Shown here: positions 1 through 22,497 of the stretch, piece by piece
How positions within the stretch are numbered: position 1 is the first letter of the stretch
Layout of the letters: each line of letters opens with the position of its first letter
Origin: a virus
Reading direction: 5' to 3' (one strand)
IMG/VR virus record: IMGVR_UViG_3300035670_001326
Location: 1 to 22,497 of that record
DNA: 22,497 nt
Notes under the pieces: model-generated
The model's database searches: none
Seen by the model: only the letters and a program-made list of their open reading frames with translations
Told to the model about the DNA's origin: nothing
Program-made: the position numbers and the translations under genes

Positions 1-225
1 AAGGTCTATGAGCGATTTCTTCCCTGGATTCGAACCCACCCAAACGTCAGTATATGTAACGACTACACAAGCTGCACACGGTGTGGAAGCTACAGTCTAC
101 AGCGGAGGGGGTATAGCACTACTGCCACGGGAAAGTACCAGCGATACCAGTGTCAAGACTGTGGTGGATGGCAGCAACAACGTAGAGGAGAAAAACTTGC
201 TACAGAAATACTCAAACCAAGCTAA
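1..225 (+). CDS. C-terminal end of a phage protein with a zinc ribbon (partial)
   Basis: The frame beginning at base 1 is open from the window edge to TAA at 223-225, giving 74 residues of a gene that starts outside the window. Seen: a four-cysteine zinc ribbon, CTRCGS at about residues 25-30 and CQDCGG at about 49-54, joined by LQRRGY and TGKYQRYQC. Before it lies KVYERFLPWIRTHPNV. Ribbons of this type occur in transposase InsA-like and phage proteins. From memory, this tail resembles the C-terminus of phage RNase H-fold exonuclease-like proteins, but the catalytic part is not in view, so the function is left open. The overlapping frame at 8-196 is a shadow: this one has the clean motif. The gene overlaps the start of the DUF3310 gene by about 29 nt, which suggests translational coupling. 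Confidence 0.8.
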   Translation, partial: KVYERFLPWIRTHPNVSICNDYTSCTRCGSYSLQRRGYSTTATGKYQRYQCQDCGGWQQQRRGEKLATEILKPS

Positions 226-439
226 ACAGGTTGGAGGTGATCACTACAAGCAGACAACACTCCAGCCTTGGGATGTCATCAGTGCTTGGTCTTTAGATCC
301 TTGGTCCGCTAATGTAGTTAAATACATTCAAAGGTTTCACCGTAAAAACGGTAAGGAAGACCTACAGAAAGCAGCACACTATCTGGAGTATTTGATTGAT
401 AACTATGATACCGTAAAGAAAAAGTATTACAAGGAGTAA
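197..439 (+). CDS. DUF3310 family protein (TTG start)
   Basis: About 80 residues. Seen: the core QVGGDHYKQTTLQPWDVI, then KYIQRFHRKNGKEDLQKAAHYL, the signature of the phage DUF3310 family (sometimes annotated SaV-like or nucleotide-kinase-like). No biochemical role is firmly established for the family. Start choice: the only ATG in frame, at 8, would add 63 residues with no DUF3310 similarity, and they lie over the zinc-ribbon coding region in another frame. TTG at 197 sits six bases after GAGGAG, a strong ribosome site, and leaves only a short lead before the conserved core. The gene overlaps the end of the upstream gene and is followed after two bases by the next ATG, so it is part of the plus-strand operon that leads to the ribonucleotide reductase. 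Confidence 0.85.
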   Translation: MLQKYSNQAKQVGGDHYKQTTLQPWDVISAWSLDPWSANVVKYIQRFHRKNGKEDLQKAAHYLEYLIDNYDTVKKKYYKE

Positions 440-441
440 CT

Positions 442-615
442 ATGGCTTTGACGATTCTGGACTTATTTGATAAACTAAAAAGACTAGATGAGATATCTCT
501 ACTTGAGATACTGAACATAACAGCAGAAGACTTGGTTGATAGGTTTGAGGACAGAATCGAAGCCATGTTTGATGATTTAGTTGACGAACTAGACGATACA
601 AAAGAGGAAGAGTAA
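442..615 (+). CDS. Small acidic phage protein, function unknown
   Basis: 57 residues. Starts with MALTILDLFDKLKRLDEISL and ends DDTKEEE. It is rich in Asp, Glu and Leu, looks almost fully helical, and has no cysteine or membrane segment. The start is supported by AAGGAG five bases upstream of ATG 442. The stop overlaps the start of the reductase gene as TAATG, so translation of the two is probably coupled. Small acidic helical proteins like this are common beside phage nucleotide-metabolism genes, but I recognise no named family. A binding partner or regulator of a neighbouring enzyme is possible and is inference only. Confidence 0.75.
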   Translation: MALTILDLFDKLKRLDEISLLEILNITAEDLVDRFEDRIEAMFDDLVDELDDTKEEE

Positions 616-2513
616 TGAAGTTGAATAACTACCAAGCATTTATCCACAAGAGCCGCTACAGTAGGTTTCTTGACGAACAAGGGCGTAGAGAGAACTGGGG
701 TGAGACTGTAGATCGCTACATGGCTTTTATGCAAAAGCAGTTACTGAAGAAGCATAAGTATGAGATTCCTCAGCATATCTTTAAGACTGTACACAAGGCT
801 ATCCTGAACCTTGATGTCATGCCTTCGATGCGCTGTATGATGACTGCTGGTGAGGCACTGGAGCGGCAGAACATTGCAGGATATAATTGTTCGTATCTTC
901 CCATCGATGATCCTAAGTCATTCGATGAGGCAATGTACATCCTTCTATGTGGCACTGGTGTCGGTTTCTCTGTAGAGTCTAAGTATGTCAATCAATTACC
1001 TGAAGTCCCTGATCAGCTATTCGATAGTAAAACTACTATCGTGGTATCCGACAGCAAAGAAGGCTGGGCTAAAGCACTACGACAACTTATTGCTTTACTC
1101 TATGCTGGAGAGATTGCAAAATGGGATGTCTCCAAAGTTAGACCTGCTGGGGCAAGACTTAAGACCTTTGGAGGAAGAGCTTCTGGTCCAGAACCCCTCG
1201 TTGAACTATTCAAGTTTGTTATTAGGAAGTTCCAGTCGGCCAAAAATCGTCGTCTCTCGTCCATTGAATGCCATGATATTTTGTGCAAGATCGGGGAGGT
1301 TGTTGTTGTGGGTGGTGTGCGACGATCTGCAATGATATCTTTAAGCGATCTAAGTGATGATCGTATGGCACACGCTAAAGCCGGTGCTTGGTGGGAACAA
1401 CAAGGACAACGTAGCTTAGCGAACAACTCTGCTGTGTATGATACAAAGCCTTCAGTGGGTCAGTTCATGCGTGAATGGTGCTCAGTCTATGAGAGTCATT
1501 CTGGTGAGCGTGGTATCTTCAACAGAGAAGCATCACAGAAACAGGCTGCTATCAATGGTCGTAGAGATCCTAATCATGACTTTGGTACGAATCCCTGTAG
1601 TGAGATCATTCTACGTCCATACCAATTCTGTAACCTCACTGAGGTTATTGTCAGAGCTACAGATACCATTGAGGATCTACGCTATAAAGTACGTGTAGCA
1701 TCGATTCTAGGCACTTGGCAGAGCACAATGACTGACTTCCCTTACCTGCGTAAGATCTGGGAAAAGAACACTGCTGAAGAGCGTTTATTGGGTGTATCGC
1801 TGACAGGTATCTACGACAATCCCTTGTTGAATGATCCTAATGATAATCAATTACCATTAAGACTACAGGATCTTAAGCATGAAGCAGTCACTGCGAATGA
1901 AGTTACAGCAAATGCTCTTAGTATTCCTGTCTCTGCTGCTATCACTTGCGTCAAGCCTTCTGGTACTGTGTCTCAGCTGTGTGGCACTGCTAGTGGCATT
2001 CATCCTCAGCATGCCCAGTATTACATCAGGCGTGTACGATCGGATAAAAAAGATCCTCTCACAGCGTTTATGATCAGCCAGGGTATCCCTAATGAGCCTT
2101 GTGTTATGAGACCAGACAGTACAACCGTGTTCTCATTTCCTATGAAGGCTCCTGATTCAGCAGTGACTAGGGATGATGTATCGTCTATTGCACACTTAAA
2201 CCTATGGAAGGTGTATCAGCTTAACTGGTGCGAACATAAGCCTTCAGTGACTATCTCAGTGAACGAAGAAGATTGGCCTGCTGTAGGGGCTTGGGTATAC
2301 AGGAACTTTGATATCTGTACTGGTGTATCGTTCTTACCTATGGATGGTGGTACGTATCGACAGGCTCCTTATGAGACATGTACTGAACAAGAGTACAATG
2401 AACTCTTAGCTAAGATGCCTGTGAACATCAATTGGGATGATCTTAAGGAGGTGGATGATAACGTCGAAGGTGCACAGCAATTGGCCTGTGTTGCTGGAGT
2501 GTGTGAGATCTAG
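615..2513 (+). CDS. nrdJ: Adenosylcobalamin-dependent (class II) ribonucleoside-triphosphate reductase
   Basis: 632 residues. It reduces ribonucleotides to deoxyribonucleotides for phage DNA synthesis, using adenosylcobalamin to make the thiyl radical, so it needs no oxygen and no separate small subunit. Seen: NPCSEI at 326-331 with candidate radical cysteine C328, plus N326 and E330; the redox pair C92 (in YNCSYLP) and C339 (in QFCNLTE); the glycine-rich LCGTGVGFSVE at 111-121; and VKPSGTVSQLCGTASG in the C-terminal half. It ends CVAGVCEI, a CX4C tail for re-reduction by thioredoxin. The 11-residue gap between C328 and C339 equals that of C408 and C419 in the Lactobacillus leichmannii enzyme. 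That enzyme has 739 residues, so this is a compact monomeric form. It is coupled by TAATG to the small gene upstream. No plus-strand terminator follows. Confidence 0.95.
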   Translation: MKLNNYQAFIHKSRYSRFLDEQGRRENWGETVDRYMAFMQKQLLKKHKYEIPQHIFKTVHKAILNLDVMPSMRCMMTAGEALERQNIAGYNCSYLPIDDPKSFDEAMYILLCGTGVGFSVESKYVNQLPEVPDQLFDSKTTIVVSDSKEGWAKALRQLIALLYAGEIAKWDVSKVRPAGARLKTFGGRASGPEPLVELFKFVIRKFQSAKNRRLSSIECHDILCKIGEVVVVGGVRRSAMISLSDLSDDRMAHAKAGAWWEQQGQRSLANNSAVYDTKPSVGQFMREWCSVYESHSGERGIFNREASQKQAAINGRRDPNHDFGTNPCSEIILRPYQFCNLTEVIVRATDTIEDLRYKVRVASILGTWQSTMTDFPYLRKIWEKNTAEERLLGVSLTGIYDNPLLNDPNDNQLPLRLQDLKHEAVTANEVTANALSIPVSAAITCVKPSGTVSQLCGTASGIHPQHAQYYIRRVRSDKKDPLTAFMISQGIPNEPCVMRPDSTTVFSFPMKAPDSAVTRDDVSSIAHLNLWKVYQLNWCEHKPSVTISVNEEDWPAVGAWVYRNFDICTGVSFLPMDGGTYRQAPYETCTEQEYNELLAKMPVNINWDDLKEVDDNVEGAQQLACVAGVCEI

Positions 2514-15361: not shown

Positions 15362-15805
15362 TCACAGAAGTCTACTTACTAACTCCTGTGCCTTCTCACT
15401 TAGTCTGTGCGGGTCACGCTTCATTGCTTTTAGCTCAGTTATAACAAGCTGTCTTGCTTCATCAGCGACCTGCTTGCCTTTTAAGTTATTCTCCATCCAC
15501 AGAAGAAATCTGGCTTGTTCATGTTTGATATATAGATGGTTTGCTATGTTTCGTAAGAAAGGACATACTTTACTGTATCCAACAAGTTCCCATGATACAG
15601 AATCTTGCCAGTTGTCATTCTTACTTTCACGGTAGGTTAAAAAACCACCATGATTTGTTTGCAACATATCAAGTAACATCTTAGAACTAACAGCCATTCC
15701 AATTCTAACTCTTGGTCTGACATAAATACCGTTTGTTACTTGAACATCTAGACAGCCTTCGCCATCAATCAAACCTGCGATATACTTCCAACTTAATCGC
15801 TTCAT
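15362..15805 (-). CDS. Intron-encoded LAGLIDADG homing endonuclease
   Basis: 147 residues. Cuts intronless capsid alleles so that the intron is copied in by repair. Seen: YIAGLIDGEGCL at residues 8-19, a LAGLIDADG motif with the acidic residues (D14, E16) expected to bind metal. Only one motif is present, so the enzyme should act as a dimer. The rest is about right for a single-motif enzyme: VRIGMAVSSKMLLDMLQ, then GGFLTYRESK, and KHEQARFLLWMENNLKGKQV. GGAGG sits four bases upstream of the ATG, but start and ribosome site fold into a hairpin. The gene is not in frame with exon 1, so it is translated on its own. Its C-terminal codons also encode part of the intron core, which limits how that end can change. 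Confidence 0.92.
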   Translation of the reverse strand: MKRLSWKYIAGLIDGEGCLDVQVTNGIYVRPRVRIGMAVSSKMLLDMLQTNHGGFLTYRESKNDNWQDSVSWELVGYSKVCPFLRNIANHLYIKHEQARFLLWMENNLKGKQVADEARQLVITELKAMKRDPHRLSEKAQELVSRLL

Positions 15806-21892: not shown

Positions 21893-22497
21893 TTACTCAC
21901 CAAGAGCGTCACTGAATTGCTTATCTACTTGCTTTTTAGCCTCCATCTGCATCTTAGCTATGTTTTCGTTACTCTTGATGTCTTCTTCCTTCAACATCAA
22001 CTCAGCAATCTTAATCCTACGTTCAAACTCACGCTGTGCTGTGTCATCGTTGTTAGGAAGGTTCTGAGTAGCTGCATTAACAATCTTTGCTCTGGTTTCT
22101 TCAGGCATTAATTGAGCCTCTACAACGGCTTTCTGAGCCTCAGCAGCAGCTTTCTGTGCTCTAGCTTGTTTTTCCTGCACTGTTGCCTGTGCATCCGCTA
22201 ATTGAAGCTGTGCAGCCTGTTGTTGTACCTGTTGTTGCTCAGGATTAGGCTGTGTTAGCTGCTGAAGTTGCTGTAATAGGCTTTCTCTGTTAGGTAATGA
22301 TGAGTATTCAACAATACCTTGTAGCAATAACGGTACAATAGGACTATTTGGACCTAAAGTAGACATCATCGCCATCATTTGAGCCTGTTCAAACTCTCTA
22401 GCAACCATACCTAGCGTACCTGTAGGTATAAATTCAAAGTCTTTTACAGGATAACGCTCTGGAGAGAACTGCATATACCGCCATGCAGCCTTTTGAA
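21893..22497 (-). CDS. Portal protein, C-terminal part (partial)
   Basis: The frame is open to the window edge; 201 residues are visible, and the ATG at 22474 is internal (QKAAWRYMQFSPERYPVK). Seen: PTGTLGMVAREFEQAQMMAM, then LGPNSPIVPLLLQGIVEYSS and LPNRESLLQQLQQL, the C-terminal part of P22-type portal proteins as I know them. A long Gln/Ala/Lys/Glu coiled coil follows (about the last 120 residues), corresponding to the barrel-like helical end of this portal type. The portal forms the 12-fold ring through which DNA enters the head. It is the first head gene of this strand; the terminase lies presumably beyond the window. Confidence 0.8.
   Translation of the reverse strand, partial: QKAAWRYMQFSPERYPVKDFEFIPTGTLGMVAREFEQAQMMAMMSTLGPNSPIVPLLLQGIVEYSSLPNRESLLQQLQQLTQPNPEQQQVQQQAAQLQLADAQATVQEKQARAQKAAAEAQKAVVEAQLMPEETRAKIVNAATQNLPNNDDTAQREFERRIKIAELMLKEEDIKSNENIAKMQMEAKKQVDKQFSDALGE

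Follow-up and report, generated by a model that had tools for sequence, protein, structure and literature searches.

One question raised by the left end of the window (the whole stretch of DNA analysed here, 22,497 bases, which is the entire stored IMG/VR record) is which of the overlapping reading frames at positions 1–225 belongs to a gene, and to which gene. Starting at base 1, frame 1 runs without a stop up to the TAA at 223–225 and encodes 74 residues with two cysteine pairs, C25xxC28 (nt 73–84) and C51xxC54 (nt 151–162), as the original prediction had said; that prediction assigned this CxxC...CxxC ribbon to a separate gene and placed the start of the adjoining DUF3310 gene at TTG197. 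We hold with high confidence that frame 1 is the edge-cut C-terminal ribbon of a 244-residue DEDDy exonuclease, that the DUF3310 gene starts at TTG197 inside the last codons of the exonuclease gene, and that the frame left open between ATG8 and 196 arises as a by-product. This explanation rests on evidence at the sequence level, namely homology, conservation of the catalytic residues and of the four ribbon cysteines, the pattern of selection and the invariance of the start. The features are as follows:

1–225, plus strand: 3'-terminal 74 codons plus stop codon of a predicted DnaQ-like DEDDy 3'-5' exonuclease gene, PHROG 403 (PHROG 403 match, full-length relatives, pN/pS)
8–196, plus strand: spurious 63-codon N-terminal extension of the DUF3310 frame, judged non-coding (pN/pS like that of an unused frame; no homologue in the phage records searched)
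73–162, plus strand: predicted Cys4 zinc ribbon (CxxC at 73–84 and at 151–162; four cysteines invariant in relatives)
185–190, plus strand: GAGGAG, probable ribosome-binding site of DUF3310, within exonuclease codons (read from the sequence)
197–439, plus strand: DUF3310 gene (PF11753), 80 aa from TTG197, overlapping the exonuclease gene by 29 nt (197–225) (PF11753 match, start conservation, own-frame pN/pS)
442–615, plus strand: context ORF of 57 aa without a family (ORF list, Pfam and PHROG comparison)
615–2513, plus strand: ribonucleotide reductase, PHROG 367 (E 8.8e-188)

The gene cut by the left edge of the record

The 74 residues matched PHROG 403 with E 3.7e-17 at profile positions 241–305 of 321. 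When viral contigs were scanned, 91 of 111 candidate stretches proved to be relatives, and the best 80 of the 91 were kept (designated here by L numbers). Extension of the sequence upstream, proposed originally as the way to find the start of a ribbon gene, was performed in near-identical contigs (L002, L004, L009 and others); there the frame continued into a whole 244-residue protein starting MRILLLDIES. In the relatives followed upstream that have enough DNA there, L018 excepted, the ribbon frame ran on into the catalytic domain. The whole protein of L004 matched PHROG 403 with E 1.7e-90, residues 1–232 being covered, and the Pfam family RNase_H_2 with 57.1 bits (cut-off 22). The DEDDy motifs (D-x-E, N..D and Y-xxx-D) were read in the relatives, since the window holds the C-terminal part only. 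Residues D7, E9, D84, Y161 and D165 and the four cysteines were invariant in 26/26 aligned exonucleases, picked from the 80 relatives for diversity and full length, and the same DEDDy residues were also invariant in 18/18 more diverse proteins. An AlphaFold2 model of the L004 exonuclease (pLDDT 88.2, pTM 0.83) matched PolB exonuclease domains with Z 17.2–18.0 and an rmsd of 2.1–2.5 Å over 155–169 residues. The full-length frames, the matches to PHROG 403 and RNase_H_2, the invariant residues and the PolB-like fold indicate that the presumed zinc-ribbon gene is the tail of an exonuclease cut by the contig edge. By profile, motifs and predicted fold, its product is a DnaQ-like DEDDy 3'-5' exonuclease, the activity being predicted.

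Two of the relatives deviate in this gene: the exonuclease frame is interrupted upstream in L018, and a stop codon lies inside the ribbon in L043. Either may be a sequencing error or a sign of gene decay. The longest ORF of the L004 exonuclease carries 42 extra residues from GTG 2365 (2365–2490), which overlap a 106-aa ORF; stops are found at this place in L019 and L053, and the 42-residue extension is probably false. In the L053 contig (42,225 bases) one query stretch matches near both ends with equal score, which suggests that this contig is terminally redundant.

Records of this class are often fragments. The left edge of the window falls inside the exonuclease gene, whose start lies outside the record, and the right edge seems to cut a portal gene (21893–22495, minus strand; PHROG 1216 matched only at 535–701 of 714), both record ends thus seemingly lying inside genes. 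The neighbours of the exonuclease are a 5'-3' exonuclease (named from PA11; PHROG 107 here), a RusA-like nuclease, thymidylate synthase, DUF3310 and ribonucleotide reductase. An HNH endonuclease (PHROG 5046), possibly a homing endonuclease, is encoded at 15362–15805 (minus strand) and adjoins the gene of the major head protein. Megablast against 50,697 phage records identified no named phage related to the window by DNA. For cellular relatives of the exonuclease, 52 genome-contig stretches matched the pattern CQDCGGW and none encoded a relative, a weak negative from a single-pattern scan. The situation is an ordinary one, a truncated known gene with a false start beside it, and the family is already known.

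Overlapping frames and the start of the DUF3310 gene

The stretch at 46–450 occurs in two alleles in the window and in L002–L058, A being the allele of the window, and the alleles are 68–77% identical at 61–196. L002 and L020 are 91–96% identical just upstream and 95–99% identical just downstream and, from their sequences, look like recombinants. In each flank the nearest neighbour was of the same allele in 51/53 loci; swaps of the allele domain were seen as single cases only, with four exceptions in the flank comparison. Two of these, L018 and L006, stand at 24–29% identity, a level at which the ungapped comparison is out of register, and the low minima in the flank comparison likely reflect lost register too.

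In order to decide which frame is real, pN/pS was counted frame by frame in 58 sequences, those of the window and of 57 close relatives, 44 of the 58 being distinct over the 225 nt. The sequence pairs were grouped as A with A, B with B and A with B. The ribbon frame gave 0.17, 0.09 and 0.24, respectively, whereas the overlapping frame 8–196 gave 1.51, 1.87 and 1.10, and the unused frame 3 gave 1.33, 2.15 and 1.79. The own frame of DUF3310 at 230–436, used as control, gave 0.08, 0.15 and 0.21. These substitution patterns indicate selection on the ribbon frame and none on frame 8–196, the DUF3310 frame being conserved only past the overlap. The window and L020 share 49/62 amino acids in frame 1; the counts for frames 2 and 3 are 30/63 and 28/63, respectively.

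An overprinted gene would be the alternative at 8–196, the frame being translated from ATG8 to give DUF3310 a 63-residue N-terminal domain. In its favour, ATG8 is kept and frame 2 is stop-free over 8–196 in 58/58 sequences, this frame also stays open for 58–62 codons ahead of the annotated start in the four further Paundecimvirus records that have DUF3310 at this place, and the between-allele pN/pS of frame 2 (1.10) is below that of frame 3 (1.79). When the ribbon codons were shuffled synonymously, frame 2 stayed open with a probability of 0.73 for allele A and of merely 0.12 for allele B. The latter value leans towards an overprinted gene, yet because shuffles that keep the ribbon protein often leave the frame open, the open frame needs no special cause, and with these probabilities its openness alone is weak evidence. 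Moreover, the values of 1.10–1.87 resemble those of the unused third frame, the identity between alleles is practically that of frame 3, and ATG8 arises from the Tyr-Glu codons TAT GAG, the Tyr of which (Y173) is invariant in the exonuclease. A tblastn search of 50,697 phage records with the 63 residues found nothing at E<=10, and in 15/15 related contigs the extension sequence had a single match, always at the same ribbon-coding place; relatives keeping the extension without the ribbon, which would have spoken against the original prediction, were not found in these searches. The overprinted gene was hence rejected on pN/pS, the lack of homologues and the control frame, and we consider it very improbable. 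Still less credence can be given to a short zinc-ribbon gene standing alone. Start codons in frame 1 could sit just upstream of the window, and the ribbon is a compact domain (modelled alone with pLDDT 75.8, a moderate confidence), but relatives 97–100% identical over the ribbon carry an unbroken frame into the catalytic exonuclease domain, and one profile, PHROG 403, spans residues 1–232. The full-length frames in near-identical contigs and the full-length profile match led to its rejection. Frame 1 is therefore read here as the exonuclease tail, and frame 8–196, in which no recognisable content had been seen originally either, as a spurious extension.

The start of DUF3310 was assessed in the same 58 sequences. 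The 80-aa protein from TTG197, which excludes the extension, matched PF11753 (DUF3310) with 39.8 bits (cut-off 24, E 4.8e-10). GAGGAG at 185–190 stands 6 nt ahead of TTG 197–199, and allele B has AAGGAG at 183–188. Other start codons are also kept (GTG164 in 57/58, GTG188 in 37/58), and conservation alone does not separate GTG164 from TTG197 (58/58); a start at one of them is nevertheless unlikely, TTG197 being the only start present in 58/58 that has a Shine-Dalgarno-like motif at normal spacing in both alleles. The Paundecimvirus records examined are not a census; in four of them DUF3310 is annotated to start where the exonuclease gene ends, two bases past the last exonuclease base in IME180, O4 and K4 and with an 11-base overlap in TC6. 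DMTU_1 and GP100 have a gene at that place without a DUF3310-like beginning. PA11 is the only one of these records with a false extension, its gp022 (L082 5068–5460) being annotated from an upstream ATG that gives it a 176-base overlap with the exonuclease; judged against TC6, IME180, O4 and K4, this start appears to lie 59 residues too early. The comparison of starts across relatives thus agrees with the original placement, and DUF3310 is judged from these sequences to start at or near TTG197.

The expected consequence of an automatic ATG choice, a 143-residue protein with 63 artefactual residues, holds for the window, where the ORF from ATG8 extends to 439. The figure of 63 does not hold generally, because it reflects where the record happens to be cut: the corresponding longest ORF in L004 opens with ATG 2984 (window position -16) and encodes 151 aa, 71 of them false. 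The gene call is corrected accordingly, since the longest frame adds false residues to DUF3310, and the public record of PA11 carries an error of the same kind. The probable ribosome-binding site of DUF3310 would sit among exonuclease codons, as is ordinary where adjacent phage genes overlap, and DUF3310 translation may be coupled to that of the exonuclease. The open frame 8–196 would be a by-product of the ribbon codons that yields nothing conserved.

The Cys4 ribbon and the role of the exonuclease

The four ribbon cysteines were kept in 23/23 ribbon segments and in 81/81 loci including the window (L043 being read past its stop). At E<=0.1, tblastn detected the ribbon in 676 of the 50,697 phage records; this result and the PHROG 403 match indicate a pattern beyond chance. 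The structures predicted for the whole L004 protein and for the ribbon alone have two CxxC knuckles and three strands. Pfam matches to curated ribbon families were all below cut-off, and a Lar (restriction-alleviation) or transposase ribbon was rejected for this reason. Foldseek gave no match of the ribbon alone to solved structures at E<=0.001. The nearest solved structures were NrdR zinc ribbons (Z 3.9–4.5 over 43–44 residues), scores too weak for kinship, pointing at most to a ribbon-like shape; NrdR is a repressor, whereas the present ribbon is the tail of a predicted nuclease. The exonuclease would perform 3'-5' hydrolysis with two catalytic metal ions, and the ribbon would bind zinc and might help to hold DNA or a partner.

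With the whole exonuclease as query, tblastn found 1,516 phage records, 1,495 of them at >= 80% coverage. Alignment A2 was built from 18 proteins (L004, PA11, CW02, SVOphi44 and 14 picked from 60 rows spread over the 1,516), and 15/18 of these diverse phage exonucleases have four cysteines in ribbon-like spacing, a loose pattern that admits ICP1 (L180), where CxC stands for the first CxxC, and StolenFromERC (L181), where the second pair is wider. The proteins of Klebsiella phage K54_rec3 and Pseudomonas phages phiPMW and SYP (L178, L179 and L187) have no ribbon cysteines and keep the catalytic residues; from the alignment, they appear to have lost the four cysteines together. The SYP exonuclease also has an N-terminal stretch resembling a helix-turn-helix, under the Pfam cut-off.

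One important question is whether the name "DNA polymerase exonuclease subunit" fits this protein. The family A DNA polymerase encoded in the genome to which L004 belongs (L087 1492–3132, minus strand, 546 aa) has a proofreading exonuclease domain of its own, with all three motifs and a PF01612 score of 21.6 bits, slightly below the 23.6-bit cut-off. By phmmer, the PA11 and CW02 polymerases contain a comparable domain with clear first and second motifs; the search for one in the annotated SVOphi44 polymerase was negative. The name is therefore doubtful here: in the L004 genome the exonuclease does not supply, as a proofreading subunit would, an activity missing from the polymerase. From these gene contents, the role of polymerase subunit appears unsupported in this phage group and is unproven. 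We tentatively suggest, as a possibility that falls somewhat short of even chances, that this widespread, free-standing, ribbon-bearing family acts alongside a polymerase with proofreading of its own and is therefore a separate DNA-processing nuclease aimed by its ribbon, not a polymerase subunit. If true, it might serve in recombination, end trimming or the recycling of host DNA.

Comparison with known exonucleases

In the available text of PMC7968707, zinc fingers are reported as absent from the exonuclease domains of phages RB69, phi29, T7 and T4, and a heading extends this absence to cellular and phage enzymes. Those domains are polymerase-linked, whereas the present family is free-standing. 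The available part of another study places phage RNase_H_2 proteins in a cluster of their own, F.23, and names no zinc ribbon for it (PMC3985635). No description of a zinc ribbon on this phage exonuclease was found in the titles, abstracts and passages of open-licence PubMed Central articles. The Cys4 ribbon of most PHROG 403 members looked at is thus a modest exception to the generalisation as worded in the available text of PMC7968707.

The PolB exonuclease domains (KOD, Pyrobaculum and Pol epsilon) have the same fold, with the Z values given above. Unlike them, the present enzyme is free-standing, is ~17% identical and has a C-terminal ribbon where the polymerase would be. MrfB, a 3'-5' exonuclease of Bacillus (8un9), gave a weak profile match (E 0.0077) with no ribbon in the matched stretch; we take it to be of the RNase_H_2 kind, like the present exonuclease. 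In the accessible portion of its description, MrfB is a bacterial repair enzyme that partners a helicase (PMC12458937). The closest known systems are the members of PHROG 403, annotated as "DNA polymerase exonuclease subunit", among them PA11 gp021, CW02 gp30, LKD16 gp24 and the "DnaQ-like" proteins of mycobacteriophages. They share with the present protein the full-length match, the DEDDy residues and, in 15/18, the C-terminal Cys4 ribbon, and they differ from it by the usual divergence only, the identity to 17 named phages being 25–44% in alignment A2.
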